Source: Thermoplasma sp. Kam2015 (GTDB taxonomy: Archaea > Thermoplasmatota > Thermoplasmata > Thermoplasmatales > Thermoplasmataceae). Taken from it: DNA of 56,917 bases. The translations under genes and the position numbers were made by a program. The stretch is from NCBI RefSeq assembly GCF_003205235.1, contig NZ_QJSM01000019.1, positions 1 through 56,917 on the forward strand. Direction: 5' to 3'. Below are positions 11,234-14,638 of this stretch, piece after piece (the first letter of the stretch is position 1; every line of letters begins with the position of its first letter). Below the pieces are notes generated by a model, which was not told the origin of the DNA, searched no databases, and worked only from the letters and a program-made list of their open reading frames with translations.

Positions 11234-11425
11234 ATGATTAACTGGGTAAGGGGTATTTCAGTGGCATTACTATTCATTGGTTTGGCGTTTTATCTATCAT
11301 GGTCGATTATGTACGGGACATGGTTCGACATTGGTCTTTATTCATTCACCATTGTGTTGATCGTTTTTGGCGTTTTAGGAATAATGCTGACAACGGTTAA
11401 AGACGAAGACTCCGTTTCGAGCTGA
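11234..11425 (+). CDS. small two-helix membrane protein
   Basis: This 63-residue protein is almost entirely two membrane helices: residues about 8-27 (ISVALLFIGLAFYLSWSIMY) and 32-54 (IGLYSFTIVLIVFGVLGIML), with a short acidic tail. It faces the VirB4-like gene and ends 23 bases from that gene's stop, so it is convergent with the secretion-like operon. No family is recognised. A role as an extra small subunit of that system, comparable with the small Ced membrane proteins, is possible but unproven. Confidence 0.55.
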   Translation: MINWVRGISVALLFIGLAFYLSWSIMYGTWFDIGLYSFTIVLIVFGVLGIMLTTVKDEDSVSS

Positions 11426-11448: not shown

Positions 11449-13359
11449 TCAATCACTAGCTGCAATAAGGAGTTTGGTGTACTTGTCCTCATAGAGATAG
11501 AAACATTCTGAGAACTTTCTGTTTTTTCCTCCGGCTAGTCTTGTCATATCTTCTTCCTCCGGTATATACTTTTCAATTCCCTCCGTGTTTCTGCTGTTTC
11601 TGAAGAAAAATTTGTGGATGCTGTTCTCCTCTATCGTGGCTCCCAGCCTTATGTCCTCAATGCTCTGCGTGATTATGACGACTGCAGTTTCAAAGTGTCT
11701 TGAATGCCTAACTGTATTTTCTATTATTTTAAGAGTCTGATCATTTCTGAGCATAATATTGGCTTCTTCGATTATGACAGTCTTTCGGCCCTCGACCATT
11801 GACATGTATTCAGATATGGACCGTGCTAGATCCAGTCCTGCATTATCGTCTATTTCAAATTTTATGAGATTATATTTTACTATGATGACCCTTGCTGATT
11901 CTATTTTCTCTCTGCTCGTATTTAGCTCTTCTATGTATTCTTCCAGAGTCATTTCAATGCATGGCCCGGAATAGTCTTGGCAATGGTATTCGCTGAGTGG
12001 ATCCAGCACAAGAACACGTGAATATTCAGAACCGGAAATTCTCTTTATCAGAAGTCCGGCAAAATGTGACTTGCCGGATCCGGTTTCTCCAGTTATCACG
12101 AAATTGTAAGAAGGGTGTTCAAAATAATCAAGAAAGATAGGCTTTCCAGTATATTCGTTCATGCCCAAAAATATTCCAGAGAGCTCCTCGCTGGAAAAAT
12201 AGGCTGGAAAGAAAGATGAAATTGAAATCCTATCCATCGGATATGCTATATTCTCCCTTCTGAAGTCCTCAAATCTAAATATAGATTTGGTTCCAGCTTC
12301 GCTCATGTTCTTTGCTCTCATACCTGCTATTTTTAGGCCACGATCGAGTTTAGATATTTCGTGGGTAAGCCCATATGGGGTATTATGAATGACCATAAAG
12401 TCAAGTCCACACAGCAATATCTGCGCTTCATCCTTTCTGTACTCATTAGATAGCTTTTCGGCAGACTTCATAACTGAATTCAGATACTCTGTATTTTCAT
12501 TTCTATTCTTTCTCTGCTTCAACTCGAAATTTATATCAGCGATCCTTGATGATGCTATTCTCAAGAGTCTTTCTCTGTTCATCTGCTTCATGCTGAACTT
12601 AACCACTGCATGTATATCGCTCATCTCAATTGCTTCGCAGTAGGTTGGAAAAGCAGGTTTCTCTGCATCTATCAGACTGAAAATTGATCTGTTCATCTCC
12701 CCAGAAAGATAGTTTTTTCTCGGCGACAAAACTGATCTATGAAAGATCCTGTGTATATTATCTATATCAGAATCTTCGATATTGAAATAAAGATGTACTT
12801 TCTTGCCTTCCCCCGGTATCTGTTTCACTGACTGTTTCAGGTTTTTAATATCATTTGTAGCATTCCACAAAAATAAGTATGTGGAGTAATAGACCTTACC
12901 TTTTATCACAGGATCTTCTGACCTTTTCTCTTCAGGGCGATGTGGAATGGAGTACGCGGTGATGTTTAGGCCGGTCTTCATCAGATCCGATATGAATTCT
13001 GATATCTCCCCAAATGTTCCTGCATGATTATCGTAGTCGGTCTTCATTTTTGCAAGAACGGCCGTTGAATTTTGTACCTTGATCATTGTCAGACCTTCTG
13101 ATCTGATGATCACGGAATCTAGGGGCCTATCCCTCTTTATCCTTTGTATTAACCTGATCATTCCTTTTCTGGATCTTGAATGAAGCATTATTATGAGCGG
13201 CGGTATGATTATGAATGCATAAACGTTAAATATCTTTATAAGTATGAGCAGCAGAGAGGATGAGATCATCAACATGAGAATGGTGCTTATACGAAATCCA
13301 TAATATTGAGGTCTGTATGCCAGTACATTTCTCAGGACTCTTTCCTCTTCCTCATTCAA
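11449..13359 (-). CDS. membrane-anchored VirB4/CedB-like (HerA/FtsK superfamily) ATPase
   Basis: This 636-residue protein has two N-terminal membrane helices (about residues 24-41 and 44-60). A middle region of roughly 350 residues follows, then a P-loop ATPase: Walker A ITGETGSGKS near residue 423, Walker B TVIIEEANIML near 525, a sensor-like AVVIITQS, and a late arginine-rich FFRNSRNT. This order (membrane anchor, long N-domain, HerA-type motor) is that of VirB4 and of CedB in the crenarchaeal DNA-import system. The start is TTG overlapping the stop of the upstream membrane-protein gene (TTGA), so translation is coupled. It is the third gene of a compact operon. It is likely to power pilus assembly or DNA movement; the DNA-import role is inferred. 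Confidence 0.75.
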   Translation of the reverse strand: MNEEEERVLRNVLAYRPQYYGFRISTILMLMISSSLLLILIKIFNVYAFIIIPPLIIMLHSRSRKGMIRLIQRIKRDRPLDSVIIRSEGLTMIKVQNSTAVLAKMKTDYDNHAGTFGEISEFISDLMKTGLNITAYSIPHRPEEKRSEDPVIKGKVYYSTYLFLWNATNDIKNLKQSVKQIPGEGKKVHLYFNIEDSDIDNIHRIFHRSVLSPRKNYLSGEMNRSIFSLIDAEKPAFPTYCEAIEMSDIHAVVKFSMKQMNRERLLRIASSRIADINFELKQRKNRNENTEYLNSVMKSAEKLSNEYRKDEAQILLCGLDFMVIHNTPYGLTHEISKLDRGLKIAGMRAKNMSEAGTKSIFRFEDFRRENIAYPMDRISISSFFPAYFSSEELSGIFLGMNEYTGKPIFLDYFEHPSYNFVITGETGSGKSHFAGLLIKRISGSEYSRVLVLDPLSEYHCQDYSGPCIEMTLEEYIEELNTSREKIESARVIIVKYNLIKFEIDDNAGLDLARSISEYMSMVEGRKTVIIEEANIMLRNDQTLKIIENTVRHSRHFETAVVIITQSIEDIRLGATIEENSIHKFFFRNSRNTEGIEKYIPEEEDMTRLAGGKNRKFSECFYLYEDKYTKLLIAASD

Positions 13360-14291
13360 TCTGATTCTTCCCTCCTGTAAGAGGCTTCCTTCGAATACAC
13401 ATTGCTCCAGTCAAGTTTTTTACTCATTGAGAAAGCAGCAGATTCCTCCAGCTGTCCTCCGATGAATCCCAGAACCGCACTGGAAGGTATGTTGAGTGGT
13501 TTCATTCTGAAGTAGCCGGTTCTTATTTCAAGGAATATGAGGGATGGGAGCACTGGTGCGAGCATAAAGAACCCCAGTTGTAATATCGGATCCGCCGAAA
13601 ATATGAATGCCAAGTGCAGATCTATGATGACAGGTATCGGAAGAAGATTCAACTCTATAAATGATGAGAAGATCCGTACCAGATATTCCTGGGTTCTTCT
13701 GATGAATGCGATGGATGAAAAGATAGGAATAACAGCAATCAGTAGAAGCTCAGCAGCCTCTCTGAATATCAACTCTGCAAGTAAAGAAGACATTGCCAAG
13801 AAATAAGACGTAAGATAGAGAAAGACAAGTGCCATCGATGAAGAACTGTCATTGGTTGAAAAATTCAATATCTGCGTTATGCTGAATAATGAATACCAGT
13901 TAACGTTTCCATAACTCCAAAGATAATCAAATATATACTCCGAAGCCAGGGCCATATACATGAGAATTTTGAATGAAAGTGCCAAGCTCAGGAATGGAAT
14001 CAATAAATTCATCAGGATATGCGTGAGTCTGAAATTCATAAGAAAAGCTCTCAAAGCTATGATAATTGAGAACAGAACAATGGATGCAGGAAGAATGATT
14101 GAGTATGCCGTATTCAATATGAAACTATACATGCTGTAGTATGTGGGTCCTGGTTTGAGTATCACTCCATAGGAATTTTCAGGGTTCAGCCCATAATAAA
14201 CTATCAGATGCCAGAGCGGAGTGAGCAAAGTCAGATAGAGGGCTACGATGGATCTTATCACATCGTAGATAAGAGTATCGACGGCGATCAT
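13356..14291 (-). CDS. polytopic membrane protein, VirB6/CedA-like
   Basis: This protein of about 311 residues has some six or seven membrane segments. I place the start at ATG 14291, where ATGA overlaps the stop of the preceding gene; the longer frame upstream would overlap that gene out of frame and encodes no membrane protein. The long loop containing PENSYGVILKPGPTYYSMYS lies between the first and second segments. The central segments contain charged residues in helix-breaking positions (LIFREAAELLLIAVIPIFSSIAFIR). Multi-helix proteins in this gene position are VirB6/TrbL in type IV secretion and CedA in crenarchaeal DNA import. No sequence motif proves homology, so the call depends on topology and neighbours. 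Confidence 0.6.
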   Translation of the reverse strand: MIAVDTLIYDVIRSIVALYLTLLTPLWHLIVYYGLNPENSYGVILKPGPTYYSMYSFILNTAYSIILPASIVLFSIIIALRAFLMNFRLTHILMNLLIPFLSLALSFKILMYMALASEYIFDYLWSYGNVNWYSLFSITQILNFSTNDSSSSMALVFLYLTSYFLAMSSLLAELIFREAAELLLIAVIPIFSSIAFIRRTQEYLVRIFSSFIELNLLPIPVIIDLHLAFIFSADPILQLGFFMLAPVLPSLIFLEIRTGYFRMKPLNIPSSAVLGFIGGQLEESAAFSMSKKLDWSNVYSKEASYRREESD

Positions 14292-14557
14292 GATCCCGTT
14301 ATTATATAATTGAAAATGGCATAGAGGAGGCCGCTCACAGCCAAAATATAGATAAACGTCCCGATTGCAGCATTTTTCAGCCTGGATCTGGCTGCCATCC
14401 TCTTGTTCTCGTCTGTGCTGAAAAATTGGAAGGCAATCGGTATCCATAGTATGGATATGAGGATAGCTGACACAGATATGGCGATTGTATCAATTCTGGT
14501 CAGCATCGCCGATATATTATTGCTTACCATATACGCCATAAATGAAATAATTGCCAT
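14288..14557 (-). CDS. two-helix pilin-like protein, VirB2/CedA1-like
   Basis: This 89-residue protein has two hydrophobic helices (about residues 22-47 and 67-86) joined by a positively charged loop containing ENKRMAARSRLKNAAIG. This is the topology of VirB2-type conjugative pilins and of archaeal CedA1, in which a short basic loop faces the lumen or cytoplasm. It is the first gene of the three-gene operon and overlaps the next by ATGA. TATTTAAAT-type promoter sequence lies about 25 bases upstream, so the message is probably leaderless. No processing site is evident. Homology to CedA1 is a prediction from topology and context. Confidence 0.6.
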   Translation of the reverse strand: MAIISFMAYMVSNNISAMLTRIDTIAISVSAILISILWIPIAFQFFSTDENKRMAARSRLKNAAIGTFIYILAVSGLLYAIFNYIITGS

Positions 14558-14638
14558 ATTGGTCGATAATCACAGTATATTTAAATTTATACTTAATAAA
14601 TGAAATATAATTATTACATCTATTACAATTTTTTACAT

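Follow-up and report, generated by a model that had tools for sequence, protein, structure and literature searches.

A domesticated type IV secretion system as the probable product of a conserved three-gene operon in Thermoplasma and its family

The closest described archaeal counterparts of the locus considered here are the Ced system of Sulfolobales (CedA, CedA1, CedA2 and CedB, with CedD/CedE) and the Ted system of Thermoproteales (Thermoproteales exchange of DNA; the pilin TedC, TedA and TedB). In these systems a hollow pilus is built from the pilin, with the VirB6- and VirB4-like proteins as pore and motor (PMC9905601; PMC11868833), and sequence comparison does not reveal the components of one system as counterparts of those of the other (PMC9905601). 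To the knowledge of those who wrote the Ced/Ted structure paper (Beltran), no other organism had been reported to have domesticated a conjugation apparatus for DNA transfer (PMC9905601). Minimal type IV secretion systems (T4SSs) are also encoded by the integrative and conjugative elements (ICEs) of Mycoplasma, which bring about chromosomal transfer, have no VirB1 or VirB8 and whose hosts are wall-less, as are Thermoplasma and its relatives (PMC12857230). In Cuniculiplasma divulgatum, Golyshina et al. (2016) described CSP5_1185-1189 as type IV secretion components, including VirB4, a multipass protein and membrane proteins; this cluster comprises arCOG05340, arCOG04034, arCOG05369 and a membrane protein whose conservation is confined to Thermoplasmatales, and the same paper lists an unlinked VirD4-family ATPase (PMC5155288). 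A VirB4 is also mentioned in a 2023 paper on E-plasma (PMC10354927). The present analysis concerns a three-gene operon within 56,917 nucleotides of Thermoplasma sp. Kam2015 (contig NZ_QJSM01000019.1; this whole stretch is referred to as the window). A first-pass annotation of the window had read the three genes as VirB2-, VirB6- and VirB4-like (CedA1/CedA/CedB-like), and this reading is supported by T4SS pilin profiles, by VirB4 profiles and fold, and by conserved linkage. As judged from sequence and modelled structure, the operon very probably encodes a T4SS-derived apparatus.

The 636-aa ATPase is assigned by profile and predicted fold to the VirB4 family and not to HerA. The Pfam families AAA_10 (7.6e-11) and DUF87 (2.8e-10) were both matched above their cut-offs, and neither a HAS-barrel nor HerA_C was among the Pfam matches of the window protein. 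The NCBIfam profiles for VirB4 CD1110 and TraC hit every one of the 30 aligned relatives (best 1.8e-30 and 2.3e-23, far short of the equivalog cut-offs), the CedB profile 23 of them and the anti-phage HerA profile seven. When the family profile was compared with the PDB, the VirB4 entry 4ag5 came first at 2e-12, the best HerA-type entry having 2.5e-8. An AlphaFold2 model of the ATPase (predicted local distance difference test score, pLDDT, 86) gave in Foldseek an essentially full-length match to R388 TrwK/VirB4 (E 1e-20, template modelling (TM) score 0.60), with VirB4 chains or chains of the R388 inner membrane complex (IMC) at ranks 1-17 and HerA at rank 18 (3e-7). Residues G424 and T426-K430 of Walker A, and E532 of Walker B, are invariant in the 30 relatives. 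A stand-alone HerA/FtsK-type translocase that happens to lie beside two unrelated membrane proteins would be in keeping with the DUF87/HerA match of the central domain, but VirB4 profiles and folds score far above HerA, a true HerA with HAS-barrel and HerA_C is encoded separately in a nurA-herA-mre11-rad50 operon (G000:C9), and the three genes stand together in all genera read; this explanation was rejected as barely conceivable. Grouping of the ATPase with a HerA-NurA clade, which the annotation had named as contrary to its reading, was not seen; the protein groups with VirB4.

The VirB4-like protein is not of one piece throughout the family. In at least eight genera two genes encode it, one for an N-terminal membrane part of approximately 230-280 aa and one for an ATPase part (loci L033, L037-L039, L044, L068, L069, L076, L081, L082, L086, L089 and L090), a distribution on the tree that requires at least three changes and, by parsimony, six. 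The stand-alone N-terminal parts of relatives show a sub-threshold resemblance to PrgI/VirB3 (E 0.03-0.1), and the N-terminal segment of the Thermoplasma protein may possibly be a fused VirB3/PrgI-like part.

The 89-aa protein is identified, on the evidence of its sequence family, as a VirB2-type T4SS pilin. The Pfam T4SS_pilin profile matches 38 of 38 members of the pilin family (best 9.9e-8) and the NCBIfam profile for the Mycoplasma ICE pilin Mbov_0395 matches 37 of the 38 (best 9e-8), while the composition control, the family of a convergently transcribed two-helix protein, gave scattered matches with no T4SS_pilin among the 25 families listed. The loop between the two helices carries a net positive charge in every one of the 38 members, and by the positive-inside rule it would face the cytoplasm, or the lumen of the assembled pilus, as in VirB2. 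For the 311-aa protein no sequence-family match was obtained by profile, and a profile search of the PDB returned unrelated membrane proteins only. It is nevertheless likely, but not proven, to be of VirB6 type, as its position between pilin and VirB4, its size and its topology agree, and its gene always adjoins that of the pilin. The six best matches of its AlphaFold2 model (pLDDT 79) among 350,542 PDB chains are all chains from R388 T4SS stalk/IMC entries that hold TrwI/VirB6, although these matches are weak (E 0.07-0.44, probability 0.41-0.93, TM score at most 0.33) and not significant alone. This weakness tells against the T4SS assignment, as do the scores of the window's own 89-aa protein, which lie below the curated cut-offs for both T4SS_pilin (1.3e-4) and Mbov_0395 (3e-4), and the outcome of the pilin profile search of PDB sequences, in which no solved CedA1, TedC or VirB2 pilin and only unrelated membrane proteins were recovered. 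An alignment of the pilins to the VirB6-like proteins with hhalign gave a probability of 0.3%, and the resemblance between pilin and CedA N-terminus seen in Ced-type systems was not reproduced.

The three genes were found on the minus strand with overlapping ends, as the annotation had described (Table 1): the pilin stop and the ATG of the 311-aa protein share ATGA at 14288-14291, and the stop of the latter and the TTG start of the ATPase share TTGA at 13356-13359. Identical four-base overlaps are found elsewhere in the genus, for example at locus L074. The operon is likely to have its own promoter and to be transcribed without a leader, because a conserved TATA-like element precedes the first ATG by about 25 bases; the block occupies an equal position in four genomes of the genus. 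Relative to the nearest species the ratio of non-synonymous to synonymous substitution rates (dN/dS) is 0.05 for the pilin, 0.25 for the VirB6-like gene, 0.23 for the VirB4-like gene and 0.10 for the convergent gene, values well below 1 that indicate purifying selection.

Table 1. Positions of the operon genes, their motifs and the adjoining features in the window
Feature	Position	Strand	Remarks
VirB2/CedA1-like pilin gene	14288..14557	-	89 aa; two hydrophobic helices and a positively charged loop (STDENKRMAARSRLKNA)
VirB6/CedA-like polytopic membrane protein gene	13356..14291	-	311 aa; ~7 transmembrane segments
VirB4-like ATPase gene	11449..13359	-	636 aa; TTG start
N-terminal membrane segment of VirB4-like protein	13183..13290	-	residues ~24-59; helix 24-59 in AlphaFold2 model
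Walker A GETGSGKS	12067..12090	-	residues 424-431 of VirB4-like ATPase
Walker B region TVIIEEAN	11758..11784	-	VIIEEA ~527-532; region about 526-534
TATA-like element (TATAAATTTAAATATA)	14576..14591	-	centre ~25 bases before pilin ATG
Convergent two-helix membrane protein gene	11234..11425	+	63 aa

All genera of the family that were read keep the three genes linked. The ATPase is present in 47 of 51 good genomes of the order and the pilin in 34 of 35 good family genomes, representing all 19 genera and in single copy apart from one redundant contig. In the 48 loci of 18 genera that were read in detail, the genes again follow one another as pilin, VirB6-like, VirB4-like; the ATPase was called 48 times there, the VirB6-like gene 47 times and the pilin 43 times; some of the uncalled genes lie at contig ends or were missed by open reading frame picking, the window's own pilin included. 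Because the order of the triad recurs in 18 of 18 genera and dN/dS is low, the operon is far beyond what chance would produce. The one good family genome without the pilin (G042, genus g2, 96% complete) gave no pilin, VirB6-like or VirB4-like profile match and kept the convergent gene, which reflects either loss of the triad as a unit or a gap in the assembly. The triad extends to other families of the order, with pilins that are divergent or enlarged, and in a second order of the class (family f7) the pilin and VirB6 profiles independently match adjacent places with a VirB4 nearby. At four f7 loci (L109, L110, L114 and L115) the pilin matches fall in or beside open frames of 700-1850 aa, with VirB6- and VirB4-like genes adjoining, and some of these long frames may be artefacts of gene calling. 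At a further locus, L112 (G006:C1, ~1018800-1023500), five consecutive pilin-domain proteins are encoded beside VirB6-like and VirB4-like genes, four of them being 320-405 aa long with N-terminal extensions that are apparently extracellular.

The surroundings of the operon are made up of housekeeping genes common to up to 15 of the 18 genera; as read from their sequences, the upstream neighbours specify a thioesterase-like protein and a ribose-5-phosphate isomerase, and the downstream neighbours a Trm1-like and a prenyltransferase-like protein. Thermoplasma itself has purD in place of these usual neighbours. In the VirB4 tree the family forms one clade with support 100 and nearly all genera are recovered, the exceptions being one conflict between g9 and g17 and the nesting of g2 within g5; the deep part of the tree is unresolved owing to long branches, and its tips include VirD4/TraD-like ATPases. 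The VirB4 of locus L083 (G080, labelled g9) falls inside g17 with strong support, meaning either that the locus has passed from one genus to another or that the genome is mislabelled. No close relatives of the operon genes were found among the plasmids and viral contigs searched. Since the operon is single-copy in a largely fixed housekeeping neighbourhood, its tree follows the genera and no close plasmid or viral copies were found, it is judged from these sequence comparisons to be a chromosomal, vertically inherited, domesticated T4SS and not a mobile element. A mobile conjugative element, or the relic of one, would be the usual carrier of VirB2, VirB6 and VirB4, and the best profile matches do include ICE-encoded proteins of Mycoplasma and Firmicutes; that origin is nonetheless highly improbable in view of the single copy in every genus of the family, of the largely fixed setting, of the absence of any relaxase (Pfam PF03432) among 21 relatives, and of a VirD4-like gene that lies on another contig. 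Ced and Ted are likewise without a relaxase and without close plasmid or viral copies. The annotation had also suggested acquisition from, or special sharing with, Sulfolobales. This was not upheld, as the bacterial-type VirB4/TraC profiles score better than that of CedB and tree and synteny show inheritance to be old and vertical across the family; with respect to the CedB family NF041017, the window ATPase scored 31.4 bits against a cut-off of 700 and none of the genome's proteins passed, the Sulfolobus acidocaldarius control being among five that did.

Like the Thermoplasma operon, Ted is chromosomal, fills the VirB2, VirB6 and VirB4 roles with a single full-length VirB4-type ATPase, and has no relaxase and no recognised counterpart of CedA2 (PMC9905601). 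It belongs to another phylum, however, and its locus is partly dispersed where the operon described here is tight and overlapping; within the window the operon has no HerA, ParA/MinD or Rad50 gene as a neighbour, and the conserved convergent two-helix gene is a feature of the present locus. The sizes and roles of CedA1, CedA and CedB are matched by the three proteins, and CedA2 resembles the product of the convergent gene in being a small two-helix protein. In contrast to Ced, which has both CedB and CedD and is further characterised by UV induction, a partnership with Ups pili and import, there is one VirB4 here and it is closer to VirB4/TraC profiles than to CedB; the split into membrane and ATPase parts observed in relatives recalls the CedB/CedD pair but differs from it, as both of its members have ATPase domains (PMC11868833). 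Pilin-like and VirB4-like proteins of the Mycoplasma ICEs are among the best profile matches (NF045849 and NF045975), but those elements are mobile whereas the Thermoplasma locus is fixed on the chromosome. Cuniculiplasma CSP5_1185-1189 is very probably the same locus, though in that paper neither pilin nor VirB6 was identified, no link to Ced, Ted or DNA exchange was drawn and the distribution was not covered (PMC5155288). The claim that Thermoplasma has a version of its own that had not been described stands only in part: the operon is present, but its distribution is not limited to Thermoplasma, and some of its components were listed for Cuniculiplasma in 2016 (PMC5155288). A literature search, with subscription papers mostly outside its reach, yielded no earlier identification of the pilin or VirB6, no paper linking the locus with Ced or Ted and none noting its fixation across Thermoplasmata, and the assignment of pilin and VirB6, the retention throughout the family and the parallel with Ced and Ted appear to be new.

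With regard to function, the operon would encode the inner core of a T4SS that is minimal and fixed in the chromosome, in which the 89-aa pilin (the role of VirB2/CedA1/TedC) would be the subunit of a thin hollow pilus, the 311-aa protein (VirB6/CedA/TedA) would serve as a membrane platform or pore, and the 636-aa ATPase (VirB4/CedB/TedB), tethered by its N-terminal membrane segment, would power pilus assembly, DNA movement or both. By analogy with Ced and Ted, movement of DNA from sibling to sibling for recombination and repair would be the likeliest use, and on balance we favour the view that the operon moves DNA between sibling cells. Formation of the pilus, DNA as cargo, the direction of transport and induction by damage are all inferred, and for import as opposed to export the chances are put at no better than even.

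Two other uses of the same type of machine were weighed. A pilus or secretion device with a non-DNA cargo, exporting protein or lipid or acting in adhesion only, would be in line with the diversification of T4SSs into effector export. Two observations that count against DNA transfer speak for such a device: no known DNA-repair gene adjoins the operon within the window, and the VirD4-like coupling ATPase, widespread in the family, is unlinked and is absent from 15 of 15 genomes of genera g2, g5 and g14, although these genera retain the operon. However, the operon is not accompanied by any candidate cargo gene, its other conserved neighbours being unrelated housekeeping genes, and the known archaeal systems of like composition move DNA, so that a non-DNA cargo is considered unlikely. 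Uptake of free DNA from the surroundings by a ComB-like competence system would need no relaxase, and a pilin with a VirB6/VirB4 core would suffice for it; in Helicobacter pylori a T4SS serves DNA uptake. Against this, free DNA is depurinated quickly at 55-60 C and pH 1-2, and Ced and Ted, the closest archaeal systems, work from cell to cell or are thought to do so (PMC9905601), which renders free-DNA uptake improbable here.

Transfer between sibling cells would, if correct, add a third, family-wide case of tamed conjugation in another archaeal phylum and in wall-less acidophiles, making such domestication a general archaeal strategy. The wall-less archaea of the Thermoplasma family probably possess a built-in route for DNA exchange, if the analogy to Ced and Ted holds, and the operon gives work on gene exchange in populations of Ferroplasma and Thermoplasma, the mechanism of which is unexplained, a definite set of genes to start from. 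As it has just three linked genes, few machines of T4SS type would be simpler to reconstitute and investigate. A bolder version, in which a core conjugation machine was tamed class-wide and independently of Ced and Ted, the convergent protein being a fourth subunit and an unlinked VirD4-type ATPase loading or exporting DNA such that cells both give and take it, is put forward tentatively and is thought doubtful; were it true, it would account for reports of high recombination in natural populations of Ferroplasma.

The convergent 63-aa family is single-copy in 35 of 35 good family genomes, with one partial second match in a lower-quality genome, and no recognisable family was found for the protein in profile scans; that it might be a second pilin was ruled out by profile, the T4SS_pilin family being missing from those listed. 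The gene adjoins the operon in most genera and is located elsewhere in g2, g5 and g14. The annotation had offered it as an extra subunit: the gene is present, and family-wide, but in view of its separation from the operon in three genera the protein may be either an accessory subunit or just a conserved neighbour. The VirD4-like protein, of 637 aa, is encoded on another contig (L066:10034-11947), matches VirD4/TraD coupling proteins (TrwB_AAD_bind, 1.9e-10) and has no transmembrane helix; a relative in G101 matches TrwB_AAD_bind at 6.5e-14 and TraG-D_C at 3.6e-9. PF02534 also matches HerA and by itself is not specific for coupling proteins. As g2, g5 and g14 form one clade in the VirB4 tree, the absence of the VirD4-like gene and the unlinking of the convergent gene in the same genera amount to a single coincidence and are weak evidence for a functional link.

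Several further loci were noted in the course of this work. In Thermoplasma the VirD4-like gene is preceded by one for a 206-208-aa protein of no known family (L066:9415-11947, G000:C35; L067:6161-8672). Although archaea are said to have no known relaxases, at L131:3646-6477 (G006:C1) a ribbon-helix-helix protein and a 190-aa protein that matches MobL/relaxase families weakly (0.003 and 0.009) are encoded together with a VirD4 coupling protein (TrwB_AAD_bind, 2.5e-38), a cassette that could possibly be an archaeal relaxosome or an integrated mobilisable element. Directly downstream of VirB4 in family f5 (L059:8332-11009), a second DUF87/AAA_10 ATPase, of 677 aa, and a protein with a weak match to a GINS-like helical bundle are encoded.

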